DNA of 35,185 nt from Chloroflexota bacterium (lineage in GTDB: Bacteria > Chloroflexota > Dehalococcoidia > Lucifugimonadales > JADFKI01). Within the stretch, counting starts at the first letter, position 1; every line of letters starts with the position of its first letter. The translations under genes were made by a program, and so were the position numbers. Shown here one piece after another: positions 21,026-34,450 of the stretch. The stretch is taken from NCBI GenBank assembly GCA_022572805.1, contig JACZVF010000003.1:1-35185 (forward strand), written 5' to 3'. The notes beneath the pieces are model-generated. The model ran no database searches. It worked only from the letters and a program-made list of their open reading frames with translations, and was not told the origin of the DNA.

Positions 21026-21091
21026 GTAACACTTATTTAACACGGCGGCAACAAATCTGTTACACATCAGAAACACGCAGGTAACATCCCA
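21026..21091 (+). promoter_or_regulatory. Six-unit 11-nt-periodic operator-like array upstream of amtB
   Basis: GTAACACTTAT-TTAACACGGCG-GCAACAAATCT-GTTACACATCA-GAAACACGCAG-GTAACATCCCA, units starting at 21026, 21037, 21048, 21059, 21070 and 21081. Confidence 0.75.
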
Positions 21092-21145: not shown

Positions 21146-22480
21146 ATGCAAATACTTAGCGAACGGCTGCGAATAACCACGTTCCGGCTGCGCCTGATGC
21201 TCGTGGCGCTGCTGGGCCTGGGAATATTCGCCAGCAGCAGCGGCATCGCCTATGCAGCGACCGCCGACGAGGTACAGGCGACGCTGGACAACGCCATCCT
21301 TGTCTTCGCGGCCGCCCTTGTGTTCTTCATGCAGGCGGGATTCGCCTTTCTTGGCGCAGGCCTGATTCGGTCCAAGAACACCGTCAACTACATGACCAAG
21401 TCCTTCCTGGACTTCTGTATAGCCTCGTTGGGCTTCTGGGCATTCGGGTTCGCATTAATGTTTGGCGGCGGAGCTGCCGCCGGATTCGTCGGGCTGGACG
21501 GCTTCTTCCTAACGGGGTTCGACGACAGTCAGTTGGTGACATGGTTCTTCCAGATGGTGTTCGCGGGAACGGCAGCTACCATCATCGCGGGCGCCATGGC
21601 GGAGCGCACTAACATTAACGCGTACTTCGCCTACAGCTTCATAGTCGGCGCCTTGATTTACCCGATATACGGCCATTGGGTCTGGAGCGACACCGGTTGG
21701 CTGGCCGAATTGGGCATGGCGGACTATGCCGGTTCGGGCGTGGTGCACATGATTGGAGGGATGCTGGCGCTGGCGGGAGCCAAAGTGGTCGGCCCCAGAA
21801 TAGGCTTCAAGGAGGGCATCCAGTTCAAGGGCCACAACATGCCCTACGTTGTCATAGGAACATTCATACTGTTCTTCGGCTGGTTCGGTTTCAACATCAA
21901 CTCCGATAGCCTGGGACTAAACGCCGTCAATACGCTGCTGGCGGGCGCGGCCGGGGCGACGGCGGCCGTCTATGTGATCATGCTGCGCACTGGCAAGGCA
22001 AACCTGGAGATGGCCTGCAACGGCGCTCTGGCCGGCCTGGTGGGCATAACCGCACCCAGTGCGCACGTGGACCCCTGGGCAGCAGTGGTGATCGGCATCA
22101 TAGCAGGCGTCATAATGGTGTACGGAGTAAGCTTCGTTCGCAGTGTCCTCAAGGTAGACGACCCCGTAGGGGCAATCACGGTTCACGGCATATGCGGCGC
22201 GTGGGGGCTGCTGGCCGTGGGCATATTCGCCTCGGGGCACGGCGATGTCAAAGGCCTGATCGCCGGCAATCCCGCGCAGATATTGCCACAGATCTATGGC
22301 ATACTGGTGGCAATAGGCTGGGGCTTGGGCGTGGGCTTCGTAGTATTCAAGGGCCTGGACCTCACTATGGGCCTGAGGGCTTCTCGCGAGGAGGAGCTGG
22401 AAGGCTTGGACGAGCCGGAACACGGGGCCGTGGCGTACCCCGAGATGAGCGCAGCGCCCGCGTCTGCCGTAGGCGACTAA
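21146..22480 (+). CDS. amt: Ammonium transporter (Amt family)
   Basis: FFMQAGFAFLGAGLIRSKNTVNYMTKSFLDFCIASLGFWAFGFALMFG, FFQMVFAGTAATIIAGAMAERTN, DDPVGAITVHGICGAWGLLAVGIFA. RBS ggagggg. Confidence 0.95.
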   Translation: MQILSERLRITTFRLRLMLVALLGLGIFASSSGIAYAATADEVQATLDNAILVFAAALVFFMQAGFAFLGAGLIRSKNTVNYMTKSFLDFCIASLGFWAFGFALMFGGGAAAGFVGLDGFFLTGFDDSQLVTWFFQMVFAGTAATIIAGAMAERTNINAYFAYSFIVGALIYPIYGHWVWSDTGWLAELGMADYAGSGVVHMIGGMLALAGAKVVGPRIGFKEGIQFKGHNMPYVVIGTFILFFGWFGFNINSDSLGLNAVNTLLAGAAGATAAVYVIMLRTGKANLEMACNGALAGLVGITAPSAHVDPWAAVVIGIIAGVIMVYGVSFVRSVLKVDDPVGAITVHGICGAWGLLAVGIFASGHGDVKGLIAGNPAQILPQIYGILVAIGWGLGVGFVVFKGLDLTMGLRASREEELEGLDEPEHGAVAYPEMSAAPASAVGD

Positions 22481-22633: not shown

Positions 22634-23692
22634 CTATGGGGTAATCAACGCGATGTCGTCGAACCACGCCGAGCCTTCGCCGACATCATCCTCTCCAATC
22701 ATCAGGTTGACCCTTACAGCAGCGGCCCCAGCCGGCGCCGTAATACCAGTGGCAGTGAGCTGAGTCCAATCATTGGTCCCAGTTACGAATCCCAGCGCGT
22801 CCGATCCGATGACGCTGGACCAGGGCGGGTTATTAGGTAACCCGGCCGCCGTAAGCCACACCAACTCCACCAGTGCGCCCATGCCATCCAAATCCTGCGT
22901 CTTCACCCAGGCCGACGCATCGAAGACATCTCCAGCCTCGACCAGCACTTCCTGATGCACGATCATAAGCCGCCGGTTTGAGGCCAACATCTGCTGCGAA
23001 TGACTGCCGGTATGCGACTGGTCATCGACTATGGACCTGCCGCCGTTGGATGCGCGTTCCCAAAAAGCGCCGCCGTCTTCGAATCCGGGATTTTGCACGT
23101 GGTTGATTGGAGCCGGATCGGAAGTTGGTCCGCCTACCTTGTTGATGAAACCATCCAGGTTGATGGTGACGACCATTCCCTCTGTGGCCGGATCGTCAGG
23201 CTTTTGCAAGGTGACCCTGTACGTTGCCAGTCCCTGCATCCCATCACCACCCAGCTCAATGACGTAACCCGGGCCCCACATCAACGTGACGTCGTTAACC
23301 AAGACCGGTGACAGGAGGACTTGGGGCATAACCGCCCAGTCTTGTGCGCCCACCTGAACGCACCAGCCCAGACTGGCGCCTGTGGCGTCGCAAACTCTGT
23401 CAGTTAAGAGATTCAGACCAACGAAAGTGTTGATTAGATCAACGGTCATGTGAGAGGACTGCCCCTCGGAGAAGCTCCCGTCTACCTCCGCAAGCTCCAG
23501 GGTTAGAATTCCGTTCGGGATTGAATCCACCGGGTCGGTGACGCCCGCATAGGTGACGTTGAACTGATTGGCGTCAACGCCATCGGAGCCGAGAATGGCG
23601 TAGGCTGTTGAAGCCGCCGCGCCGGCGATAAATGTCAATACCAAAGCTGCAACAAGAAAAAGGAGTCTTCTGCTTCGCCACTTCGCCGTCAT
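22634..23692 (-). CDS. Secreted protein: novel ~190-aa domain plus C-terminal CBM4/9-like jelly-roll domain
   Basis: Signal peptide MTAKWRSRRLLFLVAALVLTFIAGAAASTAYA. C-terminal NPGFEDGGAFWERASNGGRSIVDDQSHTGSHSQQMLASN...VEAGDVFDASAWVKTQD resembles carbohydrate-binding modules. Confidence 0.7.
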   Translation of the reverse strand: MTAKWRSRRLLFLVAALVLTFIAGAAASTAYAILGSDGVDANQFNVTYAGVTDPVDSIPNGILTLELAEVDGSFSEGQSSHMTVDLINTFVGLNLLTDRVCDATGASLGWCVQVGAQDWAVMPQVLLSPVLVNDVTLMWGPGYVIELGGDGMQGLATYRVTLQKPDDPATEGMVVTINLDGFINKVGGPTSDPAPINHVQNPGFEDGGAFWERASNGGRSIVDDQSHTGSHSQQMLASNRRLMIVHQEVLVEAGDVFDASAWVKTQDLDGMGALVELVWLTAAGLPNNPPWSSVIGSDALGFVTGTNDWTQLTATGITAPAGAAAVRVNLMIGEDDVGEGSAWFDDIALITP

Positions 23693-24066
23693 TGCGTACC
23701 CTCCAATTACAGGGAGTTCAATTCGTTGCATCACGAACATCGAGATACTCGCAGACAGTATTTCATCCGCATGTGGTGGGAAGTCCAGCGAATATAGGTT
23801 CTTGGATTGAGTGGATTGGGACATAACGGGAAATGGGGACGGGGCCTTAGCTAGAGGAGAAGTTGCGCTGGAAAACGGCGGGGGGAACCGGGTAGCCGGC
23901 GCGGCTTCCGCGGGTCCGGTCGACGGCAGGCCGGAACGAAAACGCCGCCCGCAGGGTGTAGCCGGCGCGGGGAGCCTCAAACCACGCCGGCCGCCTACGG
24001 GCGGGGGTTGGTCAGCCTAAATTCGGCGGGGCTAAACCCGATGAACGTTCATCGCATCCATCCTGT

Positions 24067-24678
24067 TCAACGGCGACCCGACGACCTTCGGCGATCGACG
24101 TTGCGCGCCTTCATCCTGCTGACGTATCCGTCGATGTTGACGGTTACAACGGCGCCTTCCGTCACTTCGTCGACAGGACTCTCGACGGTGACCCTGTAGG
24201 TCGCCAGGCCTTCGTATCCTTCGCCATCGATGACCTGCTTTACAATGCCCGGCCCCCACATGGACATCGTGTCGTCGGTCGATATAGCAGGAAGGAGCAT
24301 CTGCGGCATTGTAACCCAGGTATGCCGGCCCACATCTATGCACAAGCCTTTGAGGTCGCCGGTCTCGCCACAAGGCCTGTCGAACATCAGTCTGGTGCCT
24401 AACAGGGGGTGAGTCATCATGGACACGGTCATCTCGGACGACCTGCCCCCGATAAACCGGCCGGCTACCTGGGTCAATACAAGGTCGCTCAGACCGGCGG
24501 GCATGGAATCAACAGGACCCGTAATGCCTACGTACGTCACGCTAAAATTATGAGCCTGCACCCCAGGCCCCCGGAACTTCGCGTAGGCCGTGGAAGTAAA
24601 CGTGCCTGCCGCCAAAGTTATCGCCAGAACGGCTATCAAGAGATAGCGTCGCCTGTGCAGCATTCGCCACTTCATCAT
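24067..24678 (-). CDS. Secreted protein, paralog of the N-terminal domain of the adjacent 22634-23692 product
   Basis: Signal peptide; shared C..TG...G.C..VG...W..MPQ.LL...MWGPG.V...GLATYRVT..P.D..TEG.VVT.N.DG pattern. RBS aggagg upstream. Confidence 0.7.
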   Translation of the reverse strand: MMKWRMLHRRRYLLIAVLAITLAAGTFTSTAYAKFRGPGVQAHNFSVTYVGITGPVDSMPAGLSDLVLTQVAGRFIGGRSSEMTVSMMTHPLLGTRLMFDRPCGETGDLKGLCIDVGRHTWVTMPQMLLPAISTDDTMSMWGPGIVKQVIDGEGYEGLATYRVTVESPVDEVTEGAVVTVNIDGYVSRMKARNVDRRRSSGRR

Positions 24679-24866
24679 CAACATCCTCCTCACTGCCCGT
24701 TATACACATCGCGGGGCCAAAAAGAACAATTTAAACAACTCTTTGCCCTTGACGTGTTTAACACACTAGCTAAAATGCCCTGTTGGATTGCGGGAATCCC
24801 GTTTGCGATAGGTTGCGATAGAGCCGCCTGTGAGGGTTGAGAGGGTGTGCAGCACAGGCGGCAGAT

Positions 24867-24910
24867 GTAACAAATATTTAACATGCAGGCAATATTGCGG
24901 AAACATACAG
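24867..24910 (+). promoter_or_regulatory. Four-unit 11-nt-periodic operator-like array upstream of the small ORF
   Basis: GTAACAAATAT-TTAACATGCAG-GCAATATTGCG-GAAACATACAG, units at 24867, 24878, 24889 and 24900. A CATAAT -10-like hexamer starts at 24915. Confidence 0.7.
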
Positions 24911-24979
24911 CATCCATAATCTGTTGCAGATAACAGAAGCCATCAGGTTGGTCTGAGGCAATTGACGGAGGAGCAGAAG

Positions 24980-25078
24980 ATGGATATTCAGGCAATACTG
25001 GGCGGCGTTGCATTTATAGCCCTGTTCGCAATGTGGGTAGTGATTCCCAGCAGGCTGCGAAAGAACCGCTCCAAGTAA
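24980..25078 (+). CDS. Small single-TM protein, 32 aa, not in the ORF track
   Basis: MDIQAILGGVAFIALFAMWVVIPSRLRKNRSK. RBS ggaggag at proper spacing, upstream operator-like array and downstream intrinsic terminator. Confidence 0.7.
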   Translation: MDIQAILGGVAFIALFAMWVVIPSRLRKNRSK

Positions 25079-25115
25079 CGTCTTTTTAACCTTAGGCGCC
25101 GTTCAGAACCGATAG

Positions 25116-25153
25116 TCAACGAGGCTTTGAGGCCAAAGTCTCGTTGATTTTTT
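25116..25153 (+). terminator. Rho-independent terminator after the small ORF
   Basis: TCAACGAG-g-CTTTG-aggc-CAAAG-t-CTCGTTGA followed by TTTTTT. Confidence 0.9.
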
Positions 25154-25428
25154 GTTTCCGAAGTCGTAGATGCTGACAATCCGTCCGTGTGGCGTTTGAA
25201 TAGTCATCCCCTCTGACCGCAATGCAGAAATTATTGACTGCCGCTTGACACCATGATATCGTCTACCCGGTTTACCCGATGACGAAGGGATTTACGGCCT
25301 TGGCGGCACGGTTAATTTGAGTGCGTGTCCGTCGCCGTGTGAGCCCGGCCTTGAGATCCAGTCGACATTAATTGGCGATTTCTTCCAGCCAAATCGGTCC
25401 GGCCGGCCAATCACTCCAGGAGGGTACC

Positions 25429-26436
25429 TTGAGTTTTTACAAAGCAGAATACATTTGGATAGATGGGACTAAACCCACCGCCAAGTTGCGGTCCAAGAGC
25501 AAGGTCATCCCCACGGGCGAAAAGCCACCCGTATGGGCGTTTGACGGCTCCAGCACGAATCAGGCCACGGGGGAGAACTCCGACTGCGTGCTGAATCCGG
25601 TGTTCATCTGCCCGGACCCGATCCGCAAAGACGGCCACAAGCTTGTCTTGTGTGAGGTGCTGCTCACCGACATGTCGCCGCACCCGTCCAATACAAGGGC
25701 AGCCTGCGCGGCGGTCTCCGAGAAGTACGCTGACTTCGACACCTGGTTTGGCATAGAGCAGGAGTATACCTATTTCGACGGCGCGAGGCCCCTGGGTTGG
25801 CCTCTGAACGGCTTTCCCGCACCTCAGGGCGGATACTACTGCGGCGTCGGCTCGGACGAGGTGTTCGGCCGCCCTATAGTGGAGGACCACCTGGACGCCT
25901 GCATGTTCGCCGGCATCGGAATAGCCGGCATCAACGCGGAGGTCATGCCTGCCCAATGGGAGTTCCAGATTGGCCCCCTGAGCGCGCTGGATACGTCAGA
26001 CCAGCTTTGGGTAGCCCGTTGGCTGCTCTACCGCATCGGGGAGAACCACCACGTAAGCGCAACGCTTGACCCCAAGCCGGTACACGGCGATTGGAACGGC
26101 GCCGGCGCCCACACAAACTTCTCTACCCGACAGATGCGAGAGAGCTACGAACCCTGCGTGGCGGCGGCGGAGGCCCTGGGAAAACGGGCCGACATCCACA
26201 TAGCCAACTACGGCCACCGGATAGAGGAGCGATTGACCGGCGAGCACGAGACACTCTCGTATAATGAGTACAGGTACGGTGTCTCCGACAGAGGGGCATC
26301 TGTCCGCATACCCTGGCAGGTCCACCGAGACCAGAAGGGCTACATAGAGGACCGCCGGCCGAACGCCAACTGCGATCCTTACACCGTGACCCGGCTGATT
26401 TTGGAGACCGTTTGCGGAGCCGCGTCCCAAGGCTAA
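25429..26436 (+). CDS. glnII: Glutamine synthetase, class II (eukaryotic-like GSII)
   Basis: KAEYIWIDGTKPTAKLRSKSKV, WAFDGSSTNQATGENSDC, GIEQEYTYF, GDWNGAGAHTNFST. TTG start after RBS aggaggg; the listed ORF start is 57 nt upstream. Confidence 0.93.
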   Translation: MSFYKAEYIWIDGTKPTAKLRSKSKVIPTGEKPPVWAFDGSSTNQATGENSDCVLNPVFICPDPIRKDGHKLVLCEVLLTDMSPHPSNTRAACAAVSEKYADFDTWFGIEQEYTYFDGARPLGWPLNGFPAPQGGYYCGVGSDEVFGRPIVEDHLDACMFAGIGIAGINAEVMPAQWEFQIGPLSALDTSDQLWVARWLLYRIGENHHVSATLDPKPVHGDWNGAGAHTNFSTRQMRESYEPCVAAAEALGKRADIHIANYGHRIEERLTGEHETLSYNEYRYGVSDRGASVRIPWQVHRDQKGYIEDRRPNANCDPYTVTRLILETVCGAASQG

Positions 26437-26819: not shown

Positions 26820-28157
26820 ATGGTTGCACGCGACCCTGACGCAATTGAATTCGTTCTGCATGAGGCCCGGGAGAATGACGTCAAGTTCATTCGGCTGTGG
26901 TTCACGGATATCCTCGGCAACCTCAAAGGATTCGCCATCACAGTCGAGGAGTTGGAGGGTGCGCTAAGGCGTGGCATGGGCTTCGACGGTTCCTCCATCG
27001 AAGGCTTCGCGCGGTCCGACGAGAGGGATCTGTACGCTATGCCTGATCCCAACACCTTCAGCATTTTGCCGTGGCGGCCCCGCACCAACGCTGTCGCCCG
27101 AATATTCTGCGACATCGTGACGCCTGATGAGCAGCCATTCGAGGGAGACTCACGTGCGGTGCTCCGCCGAAACCTGGAGCGGGCTTCCAGCATGGGCTAC
27201 ACCTATTACGTGGGGCCTGAGATGGAGTACTTTTACTTCAAGGACTCGTCCGGCACCGAGCCGCTGGACCACGGTAGCTACTTCGATCAGGACGCCACCG
27301 ACGTCTCCACGGACCTGAGGCGGCAGACCGTGCTGATGCTGGAAGAATTGGGTATCCCGGTGGAGTCCAGCCATCACGAGGTGGCGCCAAGTCAGCACGA
27401 GATCGACCTGCGGCATACCGACGCGCTGACGATGGCGGATACGGTAATGACGTATCGCCTGGTCGTGAAAGAGATAGCCAGGCAAAATGGCTGCTACGCC
27501 ACGTTCATGCCCAAACCCATCACGAGTGTGAACGGAAGCGGAATGCATACGCATCAGTCCCTGTTCAAAGGCGAAAAGAACGCGTTCTACGCCGATGACG
27601 ATGAGAATAAGCTCTCCGAAGTCGCCAAGTATTTCGTAGCCGGGCTTATGCGGCATGCCAGGGAGATAACCTCCGTCACAAACCAGTGGGTCAATTCCTA
27701 CAAGCGGCTGGTGCCCCAGTTCGAGGCGCCGACGTTCGTAACCTGGGCCACCGTGAACCGCGCCGACCTGATACGGGTCCCGGCGTTCAAGGCCGGCCGC
27801 GAGGAGTCCAGGCGCATCGAGTACCGCTCCCCGGACCCGGCATGCAACCCCTATCTGGCCTTCAGCGTGATGCTGGCCGCCGGCCTGGAAGGCATAGTCA
27901 AGAAGTACGACCTCCCTCCTCCCGTGCAGTCCAACGTCTACGAAATGAGCGAAGTCGAGCGCGAGGACCTGGGTATAGAGCTGCTGCCTAGAAATCTCTG
28001 GGAGGCGATCCAGATTACCGAAAGCAGCAAGTTGGTCAGGGAGGCGCTGGGAGAGCAGGTCTTCAACAGCTTCATAGAGAACAAGATGATAGAGTGGGAG
28101 CGATACCACTCCAACGTGGCCGACCACGAGGTATCAAGATACCTGCCACTCCTGTAG
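26820..28157 (+). CDS. glnA: Glutamine synthetase, class I (short, GSI-alpha-like)
   Basis: GMGFDGSSIEGFARSDERDLYAMPD, VGPEMEYFYF, NGSGMHTHQSLFK, RRIEYRSPDPACNPYLAFSVMLAAGLEGI. No obvious adenylylation-site motif near the C-terminus. Confidence 0.95.
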   Translation: MVARDPDAIEFVLHEARENDVKFIRLWFTDILGNLKGFAITVEELEGALRRGMGFDGSSIEGFARSDERDLYAMPDPNTFSILPWRPRTNAVARIFCDIVTPDEQPFEGDSRAVLRRNLERASSMGYTYYVGPEMEYFYFKDSSGTEPLDHGSYFDQDATDVSTDLRRQTVLMLEELGIPVESSHHEVAPSQHEIDLRHTDALTMADTVMTYRLVVKEIARQNGCYATFMPKPITSVNGSGMHTHQSLFKGEKNAFYADDDENKLSEVAKYFVAGLMRHAREITSVTNQWVNSYKRLVPQFEAPTFVTWATVNRADLIRVPAFKAGREESRRIEYRSPDPACNPYLAFSVMLAAGLEGIVKKYDLPPPVQSNVYEMSEVEREDLGIELLPRNLWEAIQITESSKLVREALGEQVFNSFIENKMIEWERYHSNVADHEVSRYLPLL

Positions 28158-28316: not shown

Positions 28317-31300
28317 ATGGTTGAAAAGTACGTACCAAAATTTGGCAAGCAAGGCCTGTACGACCCCAGTTTCGAACACGACGCCTGTGGGGTTGGCATG
28401 GTGGCCAACATCAAGGGTGTAAAGTCCCACTCCGTTGTGACGCAGGGATTGGAGGTACTGTGCAACCTGGAGCATCGAGGTGCCCGAGGCGCCGACCCCG
28501 AGACAGGCGACGGCGCAGGGGTGCTGATACAGATGCCCCATGAGTTCTTCGCGGCCCAGTGCTCGGCCCTGGACATCGAGCTGCCGGAGGCCGGCCTATA
28601 CGCCGTGGGCATGACGTTTATGTCGCACCCGCCAGAAGAACAGCAGGGAATCGAGAGGATCATAAGGGACATTGTGGAGCGGGAGGGTCAGGTCTTGCTG
28701 GGCTGGCGCGACGTGCCTGTTTCTCCTAACGAGATAGGCTCCCTATCGGTACAGGTTATGCCGGCCATCCGGCAGTTCTTCGTGGGACGCAGCGGCGATG
28801 TAGCAGATGACACAGCCTTCGAGCTCAAGCTATACCTCATTCGCAGGCAAATCGAGGAGGCCGTTGCCCATTCAGGCCTGGACGAGAGTTGCGAATTCTA
28901 CATCTGCAGCCTCTCATCCAACAAGATTGTCTACAAAGGCCTTATTGTGGCGTCGCAGTTGGAGCGGTTCTACCACGATCTGGCCGACGAGGACCTGGTG
29001 ACGTCTTTTGTACTGGTGCACTCCAGGTTCAGCACAAACACGTTGGGCACCTGGAAACTGGCACACCCCTACCGTTTCGTGATCCATAACGGCGAGATCA
29101 ACACCCTTCGGGGCAACATCAACTGGATGACGGCCCGGCAGCATATGTTCGCGTCGGAGGCCCTGGGGCAGGACGTCAAGAGGCTGCTCCCAATCATCGG
29201 CAAGGACGTGCAAAGCGACACGGCCAGCTTCGACAACGCCCTGGAGCTGCTGCTGGCCACTGGACGCTCGCTGCCCCACTGCCTGATGATGATGATACCT
29301 GAGGCCTGGGGCGACCACCTGCCCATGGACCAGGACAAAAAGGACTTTTACGAGTACCACTCCAGCCTGATGGAGCCCTGGGACGGTCCGGCGCTCATTA
29401 TCAGCACCGACGGCAAGCAGGTCTGCGGCGTGTTGGACAGGAACGGCTTGAGGCCATGCCGCTACCTTGTGACGACCGACGATTTGCTGGTGATGGCATC
29501 TGAAACGGGAGTACTGGACGTCCCCCCGGAGAAGGTGCTTTTCAAGGACAGAATTCGGCCGGGGCGCATGTTCTTGCTGGACACGGAAGAGGGCCGACTG
29601 GTGGAAGACCCAGAACTTAAACGCCGCCTGTCCACCCAGCAGCCCTATGGCAAATGGCTCCAGGACAACCGCACCCACCTCTCCGACCTGCCTGAGCCCT
29701 CCAGGGAGACGCCCGCCGACTTCGACACGCTTTTGGCCCGGCAGAAGGCTTTCGGATATACGCTGGAAGACCTGCGCATGATAATGGAGCCTATGGCTGC
29801 GACCGGCGGCGAGCCCATCGGCTCCATGGGCAACGACACGCCCCTGGCTGTGCTTTCCGAGCAGGGACCGCTGCTTTTCAACTATTTCAAGCAGCTATTT
29901 GCTCAGGTCAGCAACCCGCCGTTGGACGCCATACGCGAGGAGTTGGTGACGTCGCTTTCGGCCACCATCGGCGCCGAGCAAAACCTTTTTGCCGAGACTC
30001 CGCAGCACTGCCGCCAGCTACGCCTTAGCGGGCCCATTATCACCAGCAACGAGCTGGAAAAGATCCGGGAGCTGAACAGGCGGGGCCTTCGCACCAAGAC
30101 CATCTCGACCCTGTTCAAACCGCACGACGGCAAGGGCGCCATGCAAGAGGCCATGGACCGCGTGCGCCAGGAAGCGTCACAGGCGTTGAGGGACGGCTAC
30201 ACCATACTGGTGCTTTCGGACCGGGGTGTTGATTCCATGCATGCGCCCATTCCCAGCATCCTGGCCACAGCCGGCGTTCACCACCACCTCATAAGGCAGG
30301 GCACTCGTACAAAAGTGGGCCTGGTTGTCGAGACTGGCGAGGCCCGTGAGGTGGCGCACTTCGCCTTGCTCATCGGCTACGGCGCAGGCGCGGTTAACCC
30401 CTATCTGGCATTCGAAACACTGGCCTGTATGGCTCGCGAGGCCAGCTTTCTGACAACCAGCGTGGACTACAAAACAGCCGAATACAACTACATAAAGGCC
30501 TCGGACAAGGGAATCCTCAAGATAATGTCCAAGATGGGCATATCTACCATTCAGAGCTACCGAGGCGCACAGATTTTCGAAGCGGTGGGCCTGAACGAGC
30601 CGTTCGTGGAGGAGTACTTCACGTGGACGTCCTCCAGAATCGGCGGAATCGGCATTGAAGAGGTGGAGGAGGAGTCGCGGCAACGGCATGCCTTCGCCTA
30701 CGCTGACCTGACAGTCGCCGGAGGCCGCGACCTGAAATCAGGCGGCTACTATCAGTGGCGTCGCGACGGCGAGTACCACATGTGGAACCCAGACACCATA
30801 GCGAAGCTGCAGCACGCCACCATGACCAACAACTGGGAATCGTACCGGCAGTTCTCCGAATTCGCAAACGGGTTTACCCAACGCCTGTGCACCATACGAG
30901 GCCTGCTGGACTTCAAGATGGCGGCCCAGCCTATCCCTATCGACGAGGTGGAACAGGCCAAAGAAATCGTCAAGCGCTTCGCCACGGGGGCAGTTTCGCT
31001 TGGCTCCGTCGGCCGCGAGGCGCATGAGACCATGGCCATCGCCATGAACCGCATCAACGCCCGCAGCAACACTGGCGAAGGCGGCGAAGACTGGCACCGA
31101 TACAAGCTGGACCCTAACGGCGACTCCCGCAACAGCGCCATGAAACAGGTAGCGTCGGGGCGCTTCGGCGTGACAATCAACTACCTGGCCAATGCCAAGG
31201 ACCTGCAAATCAAGATGGCCCAAGGCTCCAAGCCGGGAGAAGGCGGCCAGCTGCCCGGCAACAAGATAGACGAGTACATCGGATGGGTGCGGAACTCCAC

Positions 31301-32870
31301 TCCGGGCGTTGAGTTAATCTCGCCGCCACCCCACCACGACATATACTCGATTGAGGACCTTGCCCAACTGATCCACGATCTCAAAAACGGCAACCCGACC
31401 GCACGCATCCACGTGAAGCTAGTGGCCGAGGCCGGCGTGGGAACCATTGCGGCCGGGGTGGCCAAAGGTCACGCAGACGTAGTGCTCATCAGCGGCGACA
31501 GCGGTGGGACCGGCGCCTCACCGGAATCGTCCATCAAACACACAGGGCTGCCATGGGAGCTAGGGCTGGCCGAGACACAGCAGGTGCTTGTGCTGAACAA
31601 CCTGCGCGGCCGCATCGTCGTTCAGACCGATGGCCAACTGAAGACCGGGCGGGACATCGCCATCGCCTGCCTGCTGGGTGCGGAAGAGTTCGGCATGGCA
31701 ACGGCGCCGCTGATAACGTTGGGCTGCATCATGCTCCGCAAGTGCCACCTGAACACCTGCTCCGTTGGCATCGCAACCCAGGACCCGGAACTGCGAAAAA
31801 TGTTCGCGGGTAAGCCGGAATACGCCGTCAACTACTTCTTCTTCGTTGCGGAGGAGCTTCGCCAGATCATGGCTGAGATGGGATTCCGCACCATAAACGA
31901 GATGGTGGGCCGCGTGGACAGGCTGGAACACCGAGAGGCTACCGATCACTGGAAGGCCCAAGGCCTGGACTTCTCAGACCTGCTGCACATGCCGGACGTG
32001 CCCGACAGCGTGGCGACCCACTGCATCGAGAAGCAGGACCACGGCCTGGAGCACGCACTGGACAACCAGCTTATCGAGATGTGCAGGGAGGCCATAGATT
32101 TCAAGAAGCCGACCACGCTCAACCTTCCGATTCGGAACGGCAATCGCACGGTTGGCACGACCCTCAGCTACGAAATTGCCAAGCGGTACGGCGAGGACGC
32201 GCTGCCGGACGACACTATCACCATCAACTTCAAGGGCTCCGCTGGTCAGAGCTTCTCGGCGTTCCTGGCCAAGGGCGTAACGATGCACGTCAAGGGCGAC
32301 GCCAACGACTACTTTGCCAAGGGCCTATCCGGCGGCAAGGTCACGATCACCCCGCCCACGGAAGCGACTTACCCGCCTGAGGAGTGCATCCTGGTGGGAA
32401 ACGTTGTGCTGTACGGGGCCACCGGCGGCAAGGCCTTCATTCGCGGCATCGCCGGAGAGCGTTTCGCCGTGAGGAACAGTGGCGCGCAGGCAGTAGTTGA
32501 GGGCGTCGGGGACCATGGCTGCGAATACATGACCCGCGGCACCGTGGTGGTGTTGGGTCCTGTCGGGCGCAACTTCGCCGCGGGCATGAGCGGCGGCGAG
32601 GCATTCGTGCTCGACGAGAACGGCACATTCGAAAGCATGTGCAATACGGGCCTTGTCGGCTTGGAGCAGGTCGAGGCCGATGACGACAAGAGCCTTCTTC
32701 GTGGCCTGATTCAGGAGCATTTCGACCAGACGGGCAGCCTAAACGCCAAGCGTGTCATAGAGAACTGGGACGAGATGCTTCCCAAGTTCGTTAAGGTTAT
32801 GCCGCACGACTACAAGCGCGTGCTGGAAGAGCGAAAGAGGTCCCAGGAGGCGGCCACGGCGGCCGATTAA
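28317..32870 (+). CDS. gltB: Glutamate synthase large subunit
   Basis: 1517 aa. HDACGVGMVANIKG with Cys nucleophile, LVHSRFSTNTLGTWKLAHPYRFVIHNGEINTLRGN, SGDSGGTGASPESSIKHTGLPWELGLAE. Confidence 0.98.
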   Translation: MVEKYVPKFGKQGLYDPSFEHDACGVGMVANIKGVKSHSVVTQGLEVLCNLEHRGARGADPETGDGAGVLIQMPHEFFAAQCSALDIELPEAGLYAVGMTFMSHPPEEQQGIERIIRDIVEREGQVLLGWRDVPVSPNEIGSLSVQVMPAIRQFFVGRSGDVADDTAFELKLYLIRRQIEEAVAHSGLDESCEFYICSLSSNKIVYKGLIVASQLERFYHDLADEDLVTSFVLVHSRFSTNTLGTWKLAHPYRFVIHNGEINTLRGNINWMTARQHMFASEALGQDVKRLLPIIGKDVQSDTASFDNALELLLATGRSLPHCLMMMIPEAWGDHLPMDQDKKDFYEYHSSLMEPWDGPALIISTDGKQVCGVLDRNGLRPCRYLVTTDDLLVMASETGVLDVPPEKVLFKDRIRPGRMFLLDTEEGRLVEDPELKRRLSTQQPYGKWLQDNRTHLSDLPEPSRETPADFDTLLARQKAFGYTLEDLRMIMEPMAATGGEPIGSMGNDTPLAVLSEQGPLLFNYFKQLFAQVSNPPLDAIREELVTSLSATIGAEQNLFAETPQHCRQLRLSGPIITSNELEKIRELNRRGLRTKTISTLFKPHDGKGAMQEAMDRVRQEASQALRDGYTILVLSDRGVDSMHAPIPSILATAGVHHHLIRQGTRTKVGLVVETGEAREVAHFALLIGYGAGAVNPYLAFETLACMAREASFLTTSVDYKTAEYNYIKASDKGILKIMSKMGISTIQSYRGAQIFEAVGLNEPFVEEYFTWTSSRIGGIGIEEVEEESRQRHAFAYADLTVAGGRDLKSGGYYQWRRDGEYHMWNPDTIAKLQHATMTNNWESYRQFSEFANGFTQRLCTIRGLLDFKMAAQPIPIDEVEQAKEIVKRFATGAVSLGSVGREAHETMAIAMNRINARSNTGEGGEDWHRYKLDPNGDSRNSAMKQVASGRFGVTINYLANAKDLQIKMAQGSKPGEGGQLPGNKIDEYIGWVRNSTPGVELISPPPHHDIYSIEDLAQLIHDLKNGNPTARIHVKLVAEAGVGTIAAGVAKGHADVVLISGDSGGTGASPESSIKHTGLPWELGLAETQQVLVLNNLRGRIVVQTDGQLKTGRDIAIACLLGAEEFGMATAPLITLGCIMLRKCHLNTCSVGIATQDPELRKMFAGKPEYAVNYFFFVAEELRQIMAEMGFRTINEMVGRVDRLEHREATDHWKAQGLDFSDLLHMPDVPDSVATHCIEKQDHGLEHALDNQLIEMCREAIDFKKPTTLNLPIRNGNRTVGTTLSYEIAKRYGEDALPDDTITINFKGSAGQSFSAFLAKGVTMHVKGDANDYFAKGLSGGKVTITPPTEATYPPEECILVGNVVLYGATGGKAFIRGIAGERFAVRNSGAQAVVEGVGDHGCEYMTRGTVVVLGPVGRNFAAGMSGGEAFVLDENGTFESMCNTGLVGLEQVEADDDKSLLRGLIQEHFDQTGSLNAKRVIENWDEMLPKFVKVMPHDYKRVLEERKRSQEAATAAD

Positions 32871-32977: not shown

Positions 32978-34450
32978 ATGGGAAAACCGACAGGTTTTAA
33001 GGAACAGAAAATGATGACGCTGCCGCACCAGTCGGTGGCGGAACGGATACAGCACTACCGCGAGTTCTACGAACACTGGACCGAGCAGCAAGCCCGCGAC
33101 CAGGGCAGCCGATGCATGAACTGCGGCGTACCCTTCTGCCACACAGGTTGCCCACTGGGCAACCTGATACCGGACTGGAACGACCTCGTATACCGAGGCA
33201 GGTGGCAGGAGGCCCTGGTAGAGCTGCACTCCACCAACAACTTTCCGGAGTTTACCGGCCGCATCTGCCCCGCGCCATGCGAGTCGGCGTGCACGCTGGC
33301 AGTCAACCAGGACCCGGTTACCATCGAGCATATCGAAAAGGCCATTGCCGACCGTGGCTGGCAGGAGGGCTGGATAACCCCTCAATCGCCGGCCAAGCGA
33401 ACCGGCAAGACGGTCGCCATCGTGGGCTCAGGCCCGGCGGGACTGGCGGCGGCACAGCAGCTTTGCCGCTCCGGCCACACCGTCACCGTTTTCGAGCGAG
33501 ACGACTACATCGGCGGACTGCTGCGCCTGGGCATACCCGACTTCAAGCTGGACAAGGATATCGTTCAACGCCGCGTCGACCAGATGGCGGCCGAGGGCGT
33601 CACTTTTCGGACGGGCGTCAACGTTGGAGGCGACGAACTTCCGGCGGACAGGTTGGTCAACGAATTCGACGCCGTGGTATTGAGCGGCGGCTCGACGGTG
33701 CCCCGCGACCTTCAGGTACCGGGCCGCGAGCTCCAGGGCGTTCATTACGCCATGGAGTTCCTGGTCCAGCAAAACAAGATTAACGCGGGCGAGACTATCC
33801 CTACCGGAAAGCGCATTTCGGCCGAGGGCAAGCGCGTTGTTATCCTTGGCGGCGGCGACACCGGTTCCGACTGTTTGGGCACGTCCCACAGGCAGGGCGC
33901 GGAGGCCGTCTACCAGTACGAGCTGCTTACAGAGCCGCCAACCGAGCGCGCTTCAGACAACCCATGGCCTTACTGGCCCGTGGTCCTGCGGACATCCCTA
34001 TCGCAAGAGGAGGGCGTGATTCCAGGCTTTGGGATAATGACCACGCACCTGTCCGGTAACTCGGGACATGTCAAGAAACTTCACGCGGTGAAGGTCCAGT
34101 GGGGTGCGCCCGACGAGTCCGGAAGGCCGCAGATGCAGAAGATCGAGGGCAGCGAGTTCGATGTCGAAGTAGACCTGGTGCTGCTGGCCATGGGTTTCCT
34201 GTGTCCCGAGCCGACGGGCCTGCTGGCTGAGCTCGGCGTAAAACTGGACGCGCGCGGGAACGTGTCCAACGATGATGACAAGATGACCAGCGTGCCCGGC
34301 GTCTTCGTCGCCGGCGACATGGCGCGTGGCCAATCGCTTGTGGTTTGGGCAATCGCGGAAGGCCGGGAGGCCGCTCGCGGCGTAGACCAGTACCTGATGG
34401 GACAAACCAGCCTGCCGCGCGTGCTGGCGGGGGCGCTGCCCAGGGCTTAG
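32978..34450 (+). CDS. gltD: Glutamate synthase small subunit
   Basis: RCMNCGVPFCHTGCPLGNLIPDWNDLVY, VAIVGSGPAGLAAAQQL, VVILGGGDTGSDCLGTSHRQGA. Confidence 0.97.
   Translation: MGKPTGFKEQKMMTLPHQSVAERIQHYREFYEHWTEQQARDQGSRCMNCGVPFCHTGCPLGNLIPDWNDLVYRGRWQEALVELHSTNNFPEFTGRICPAPCESACTLAVNQDPVTIEHIEKAIADRGWQEGWITPQSPAKRTGKTVAIVGSGPAGLAAAQQLCRSGHTVTVFERDDYIGGLLRLGIPDFKLDKDIVQRRVDQMAAEGVTFRTGVNVGGDELPADRLVNEFDAVVLSGGSTVPRDLQVPGRELQGVHYAMEFLVQQNKINAGETIPTGKRISAEGKRVVILGGGDTGSDCLGTSHRQGAEAVYQYELLTEPPTERASDNPWPYWPVVLRTSLSQEEGVIPGFGIMTTHLSGNSGHVKKLHAVKVQWGAPDESGRPQMQKIEGSEFDVEVDLVLLAMGFLCPEPTGLLAELGVKLDARGNVSNDDDKMTSVPGVFVAGDMARGQSLVVWAIAEGREAARGVDQYLMGQTSLPRVLAGALPRA

Follow-up and report, generated by a model that had tools for sequence, protein, structure and literature searches.

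What is encoded by the 32-codon open reading frame (ORF) that lies between an ammonium transporter gene (amtB) and the genes for glutamine synthetase (GS) and glutamate synthase (GOGAT) in this Chloroflexota genome? The window analyzed here, a stretch of 35,185 nucleotides, belongs to an assembly of 2.87 Mb in 316 contigs. The initial annotation had proposed a small membrane protein (SMP) of the nitrogen regulon, encoded as a monocistronic unit. The relevant features of the window are as follows.

21026..21085, + strand: six-unit GlnR-type array upstream of amtB (GTAAC-like units)
21146..22480, + strand: amtB, class Amt1 (PF00909), the class tracked by SMP; acidic C-tail GLRASREEELEGLDEPEHGAVAYPE
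24867..24904, + strand: GlnR-type four-unit array GTAAC-N6-TTAAC-N6-GCAAT-N6-GAAAC with an 11-bp period, in agreement with published GlnR boxes (PMC10704036)
24915..24920, + strand: inferred -10 box CATAAT, 10 bp past the last array unit; found at a conserved place across an alignment of 85 SMP promoters
24967..24975, + strand: Shine-Dalgarno-like region (ggaggag run), read in the sequence; GGAGG-like sites also precede most homologues
24980..25078, + strand: SMP gene, MDIQAILGGVAFIALFAMWVVIPSRLRKNRSK, for a 32-aa single-TM protein (pN/pS, AlphaFold2 helix, hydropathy)
25114..25155, + strand: intrinsic terminator closing the SMP unit, a 16-bp stem plus T-run
25372..26436, + strand: GSII-type glutamine synthetase, 3' of the SMP terminator
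26820..28157, + strand: GSI-type glutamine synthetase
28317..32870, + strand: glutamate synthase large subunit (GltB)
32978..34450, + strand: glutamate synthase small subunit (GltD-like)

A small protein-coding gene under selection

The ORF, its ATG and the ggaggag ribosome-binding site were all confirmed at the place first assigned to them. Among the window's 265 ATG-initiated ORFs of 25-60 aa, it is the sole one to pair a Shine-Dalgarno-like site with a hydrophobic core (a 19-residue window with hydropathy of at least 1.9). The strong dedicated terminator, originally placed at 25116-25153, also held, with a stem of 16 pairs at 25114-25149 and a folding z of -3.8. The claimed location between amtB and the GS/GOGAT genes held with a correction: SMP is not directly 3' of amtB in the window because two minus-strand ORFs (22634-23980 and 24067-24693) intervene. 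These encode paralogous secreted-type proteins that are 46% identical over 193 aa, the longer of which (22634-23980) has a weak carbohydrate-binding/NTTRR-F1 match.

The ORF is a real protein-coding gene under selection. In 414 close pairs drawn from 108 distinct core SMP sequences, mean pN was 0.107 and mean pS 0.479 (ratio 0.22), and pN was lower than pS in every pair. Codon-position entropies of 0.95, 0.71 and 1.64 identify the third position as the variable one. A lack of such conservation would have refuted the initial annotation; instead, frames are open in relatives and the peptide is under purifying selection at the codon level, which rules out a purely non-coding reading.

Family members are mostly 26-57 aa long with a single helix. 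Their consensus is MExxLGGxAFxGLFxxWVVLPSxxRKxxx, in which F12 and P23 are invariant and an F-W-V-P motif is strongly conserved. The AlphaFold2 (monomer) model consists of one helix spanning residues 3-30 (pLDDT 88), and the window protein has a hydropathy peak of 2.37 and a basic C-tail. Since the C-side is more positive than the N-side in 101 of 102 sequences, an N-out/C-in topology is predicted, leaving a cytoplasmic tail of about 8-10 residues. SMP is thus predicted by the model, and inferred from sequence, to be a single-pass membrane protein, in agreement with the original claim of one TM helix and a basic cytoplasmic tail.

A search with the single sequence retrieved homologues from 44 of 98 genomes of the order at E<=1, and a profile search extended them to further orders and classes within the phylum. 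A GTDB-wide pattern scan yielded 87 stretches, the majority of them short ORFs of Chloroflexota located next to amt or GS; most matches outside Chloroflexota were set aside as long, truncated or unrelated ORFs. Named contigs with homologues are from the SAR202 cluster, Dehalococcoidia or Chloroflexota, and within the phylum SMP ranges over SAR202/Dehalococcoidia and also Anaerolineae. Its carriers hence number dozens of Chloroflexota genomes, SAR202-type and others, from largely uncultivated marine and groundwater bacteria. Cultured carriers are Anaerolinea thermolimosa (L104) and Leptolinea, on a plasmid (L146); the ORF is unannotated in the finished Leptolinea record. Despite this spread, SMP is absent from curated families: profile searches of Pfam, NCBIfam, PHROGs and PDB sequences gave no match below E 0.01, and matches of members to FixQ, PVV-CTERM and CcoM in the Pfam/NCBIfam/PHROG scans were rejected as chance level only.

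Some related or similar sequences fall outside the core set. A family drawn in by the profile ('MPEWWLEAxLPxxxF..SKIR') was excluded, as its genes are without array and beside other genes. Its members (L057-L060, L066, L206-L211) are small TM proteins of the form M(P)EWWLEAxLPxxxFxxLxxxWVxxPPKxGExDFxSKIRxx; L057 has an ArsP-like permease nearby, and L066 one of OppC type. L212 (G068:C133) is what remains of a broken SMP gene, its frame apparently disrupted but its array well preserved, in a genome without Amt1. In another Chloroflexota class, SMP-like proteins MPLPLEALLGIVAFAGLFMMWAVVPARLRKR (L175-L198, family f125) are encoded away from Amt and GS.

The promoter array and a GlnR-like regulator

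SMP genes are preceded by a characteristic promoter pattern. The initial annotation had reported an array common to amtB and the small ORF, and this held: across both strands, the window's only two high-scoring array sites are those 5' of amtB and of the SMP gene. Called at p<=0.05 against shuffles, the array precedes 92 of 104 distinct SMP genes, with the direct-repeat consensus GTAACAN5-TTAACAN5-GNAA(A/C)N6-GTAACA and an 11-bp period. It is also found upstream of 32/38 Amt1 and 22/23 Amt2 genes, but of just 3/34 GSI and 0/19 GltB genes. The SMP genes of Anaerolineae are without array and are located 43-125 bp after amt. In 85 aligned SMP promoters, a -10 box follows 10-11 bp beyond the last array unit (A at +49 in 93%, A at +51 in 78%, T at +53 in 92%). 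Intrinsic terminators are present 3' of 58 of 107 SMP genes, 53 of them beating shuffles. Tandem SMP copies, up to four, mostly each have their own array, and the parts of the transcript outside the ORF are not conserved. The core claim of a monocistronic small membrane protein in the nitrogen regulon is therefore supported, given that the monocistronic layout recurs in relatives and that synteny and array are both conserved across dozens of families. The initial annotation had missed that the array is a GlnR-type box and that the gene belongs to a widespread family in which tandem duplication is frequent.

The array matches sites known from Actinobacteria. The GlnR box of Mycobacterium smegmatis reads t/gTAAC-n6-Gc/aAAC, and activation by GlnR takes place from four sites arranged head to tail (PMC10704036). 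The system described here shares with the actinobacterial regulon its GTAAC-like sites, four-unit arrays of 11-bp period before amt, and an encoded OmpR-family GlnR-like protein. It differs in its occurrence in Chloroflexota and in the arrays before tiny membrane-protein genes, of which no description was found in the GlnR review (PMC10704036). The GlnR-like protein of this genome (L160, G000:C265) has its best PDB matches in 8hig_A (1e-32) and 8hih_O, both of which we take to be GlnR; regX3 scores close behind. Homologues of L160 adjoin Amt/SMP genes in about nine relatives. The regulator is near Amt1 in G011, G033, G069, G091, G065 and G080, often adjacent or divergent to amtB; in these proteins and L160, the receiver domain is weakly conserved. 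That this protein binds the array and activates SMP under nitrogen limitation is inferred, in the absence of binding or expression data. With the same reservation as to binding, the promoter survey suggests that a GlnR-type regulon exists beyond Actinobacteria, for which no earlier description was found in the literature searched.

Linkage and co-occurrence with Amt1

SMP genes are closely associated with nitrogen assimilation loci. An Amt, PII or GS gene is present on the same strand within 2.6 kb of 71 of the 79 distinct Amt-type SMP genes, and on the opposite strand of none; Amt is upstream in 49 of the 79. The usual gene orders are Amt1-SMP-GS-GltB-GltD and Amt1-SMP(1 to 4 copies)-Amt2-(PII)-(second SMP)-GS. 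Where present, the PII gene comes after Amt2, and it directly follows Amt1 at one locus only (L131).

Presence of SMP follows that of Amt1, defined as an Amt of the window's class with at least 57% identity or a clear fragment. Across the 98 genomes of the order, SMP is encoded in 26/26 genomes with Amt1 vs 6/72 without it (Fisher 2e-18, treating genomes as independent); the latter figure leaves out the MPEWW-type family and one broken remnant. Families f6, f37, f41 and f20 each include genomes with SMP and Amt1 as well as genomes with neither. SMP is thus a protein under selection that is inherited with Amt1; its gene has a GlnR-type promoter to itself and, in the window, a dedicated terminator as well. 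There are exceptions. G037 (97% complete) lacks Amt but contains SMP-GSI-GltBD; G028, G048, G054 and G061 have SMP and Amt2 without Amt1; and G001, with SMP and no Amt1, is an assembly just 66% complete. In mirror-tree comparisons, SMP distances correlate at least as well with those of GSI as with those of Amt1.

A group of QAAD-tailed SMP paralogs, comprising 22 distinct sequences, has no Amt or GS neighbour. The array is upstream of most of them, and this retention of the promoter away from Amt and GS argues against a purely Amt-specific role for the family. These paralogs (L056, L072, L077, L087, L107, L111, L135 and others) are about 49-55 aa long. Neighbours of several include an alcohol dehydrogenase, an alpha/beta hydrolase and an unknown protein of 338-362 aa. 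A match in a Latescibacterota MAG is also a QAAD-type SMP and is possibly misbinned.

Proposed function and alternatives

The initial annotation had speculated that the protein modulates Amt or a GS. The data are consistent with this, and the co-occurrence pattern speaks for Amt, but neither role is shown. The reading we prefer, which could prove wrong as readily as right, is that SMP is induced by nitrogen limitation and serves Amt1 as an accessory or modulatory subunit; the function is inferred and there are no interaction data. When nitrogen is short, the GlnR-like OmpR-family regulator would occupy the four 11-bp sites beside the -10 box and turn on the one-gene SMP unit. SMP would then insert as a single helix, N-terminus out and basic C-terminus in, and pack against Amt1 with its basic tail beside the acidic cytoplasmic tail of the transporter. 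That tail region of Amt is the part used by GlnK in E. coli, and glnK commonly occupies the gene position next to amt. SMP may thus stabilize or modulate Amt1 from the gene slot normally held by glnK. Points against the subunit reading are G037, the four Amt2-only genomes, the QAAD paralogs, a mirror-tree that does not favour Amt, and the dedicated promoters and terminators of SMP, which make a fixed SMP:Amt stoichiometry unnecessary. A bolder version is conceivable, in which peptides of about 30 aa gate or stabilize an Amt class lacking an adjacent glnK, providing an integral-membrane alternative to PII control. These peptides may constitute a dedicated Chloroflexota family, in which most copies have a GlnR-type promoter to themselves and tandem multiplication is frequent. 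In this respect, SMP offers a specific candidate for the control of Amt without PII, an idea that can be tested in the cultured Anaerolinea thermolimosa and Leptolinea.

Four other explanations were weighed against the Amt1-subunit reading. SMP could possibly act on its own as a membrane peptide of nitrogen starvation, in the manner of YohP or a type I toxin, reducing membrane potential or slowing metabolism; its position next to amt and GS would then merely reflect a nitrogen island. Small size, one helix, a basic tail, up to four tandem copies, an inducible-type promoter with terminator, and the QAAD paralogs with arrays away from Amt/GS all suit this proposal, as does the precedent of the 27-aa E. 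coli YohP, which is starvation-linked and lowers proton motive force (PMC12719787). However, the near-strict presence with Amt1 across the order, the steady orientation and gene order, and the conserved F-W-V-P motif better fit a specific partner. It is unlikely that SMP instead tethers glutamine synthetase to the membrane close to the transporter, so that incoming ammonium is channelled into glutamine. SMP precedes GSII, GSx or GSI at many loci, G037 retains SMP-GSI-GltBD without any Amt, and the distance correlation with GSI is at least as good as with Amt1; against this, the type of GS after SMP varies, the next gene is often Amt2 instead, SMP presence tracks Amt1, and the cytoplasmic tail is very short.

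We give still less credence to the proposal that SMP serves as a membrane anchor or sink for PII/GlnK or for the GlnR-like regulator, coupling Amt activity to nitrogen control. PII and GlnR-like genes do share clusters with SMP in several relatives, and in Methanosarcina mazei the small protein sP36 bridges AmtB1 and GlnK1 (PMC10714827), but no PII was detected in the SMP genomes G002, G031 and G037, and sP36 is without a TM helix. Lastly, the transcript might be a nitrogen-regulated small RNA or leader in which the ORF is incidental. A short monocistronic unit with a strong promoter and terminator, sometimes in tandem, is a layout typical of regulatory small RNAs. This explanation is all but excluded by the purifying selection and third-position variability of the codons, the Shine-Dalgarno sites before most members, the absence of an Rfam match in the window, and the lack of conservation in the flanking transcript.

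SMP appears to be a new family of unusual regulatory design, whose role, by analogy, may resemble that of KdpF, AcrZ, CydX or sP36. It shares no detectable sequence with the known families tested; the sP36 sequence was outside this comparison. KdpF, CydX, AcrZ, MgtS and TorE/NapE are accessory single-helix proteins that stabilize or tune membrane complexes. They resemble SMP in having about 30-50 aa and one TM helix, but have no detectable sequence kinship with it in PDB and Pfam/NCBIfam searches; SMP genes, unlike theirs, come with a dedicated promoter and terminator and occur in tandem. The sP36 protein is likewise small, nitrogen-regulated and proposed to modulate an ammonium transporter (PMC10714827). 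It has 61 aa, is soluble, and becomes membrane-bound after ammonium upshift (PMC10714827), whereas SMP is an integral helix. YohP is also a starvation-linked single-TM peptide (PMC12719787); SMP differs in being bound to amt/GS loci and a nitrogen-type promoter.

With respect to the transporters, the C-tail of Amt1 is slightly more acidic than that of Amt2 (mean charge -6.5 vs -5.5). The idea that Amt1 has lost its GlnK-contact tail was rejected, as the GLD..EHG..AY tail is retained; the HGE glutamate of Amt2 is usually absent from the Amt1 tail. The genome of the window also carries a second amtB (G000:C41:4540-5194), a fragment with an in-frame TGA that adjoins a PII gene.
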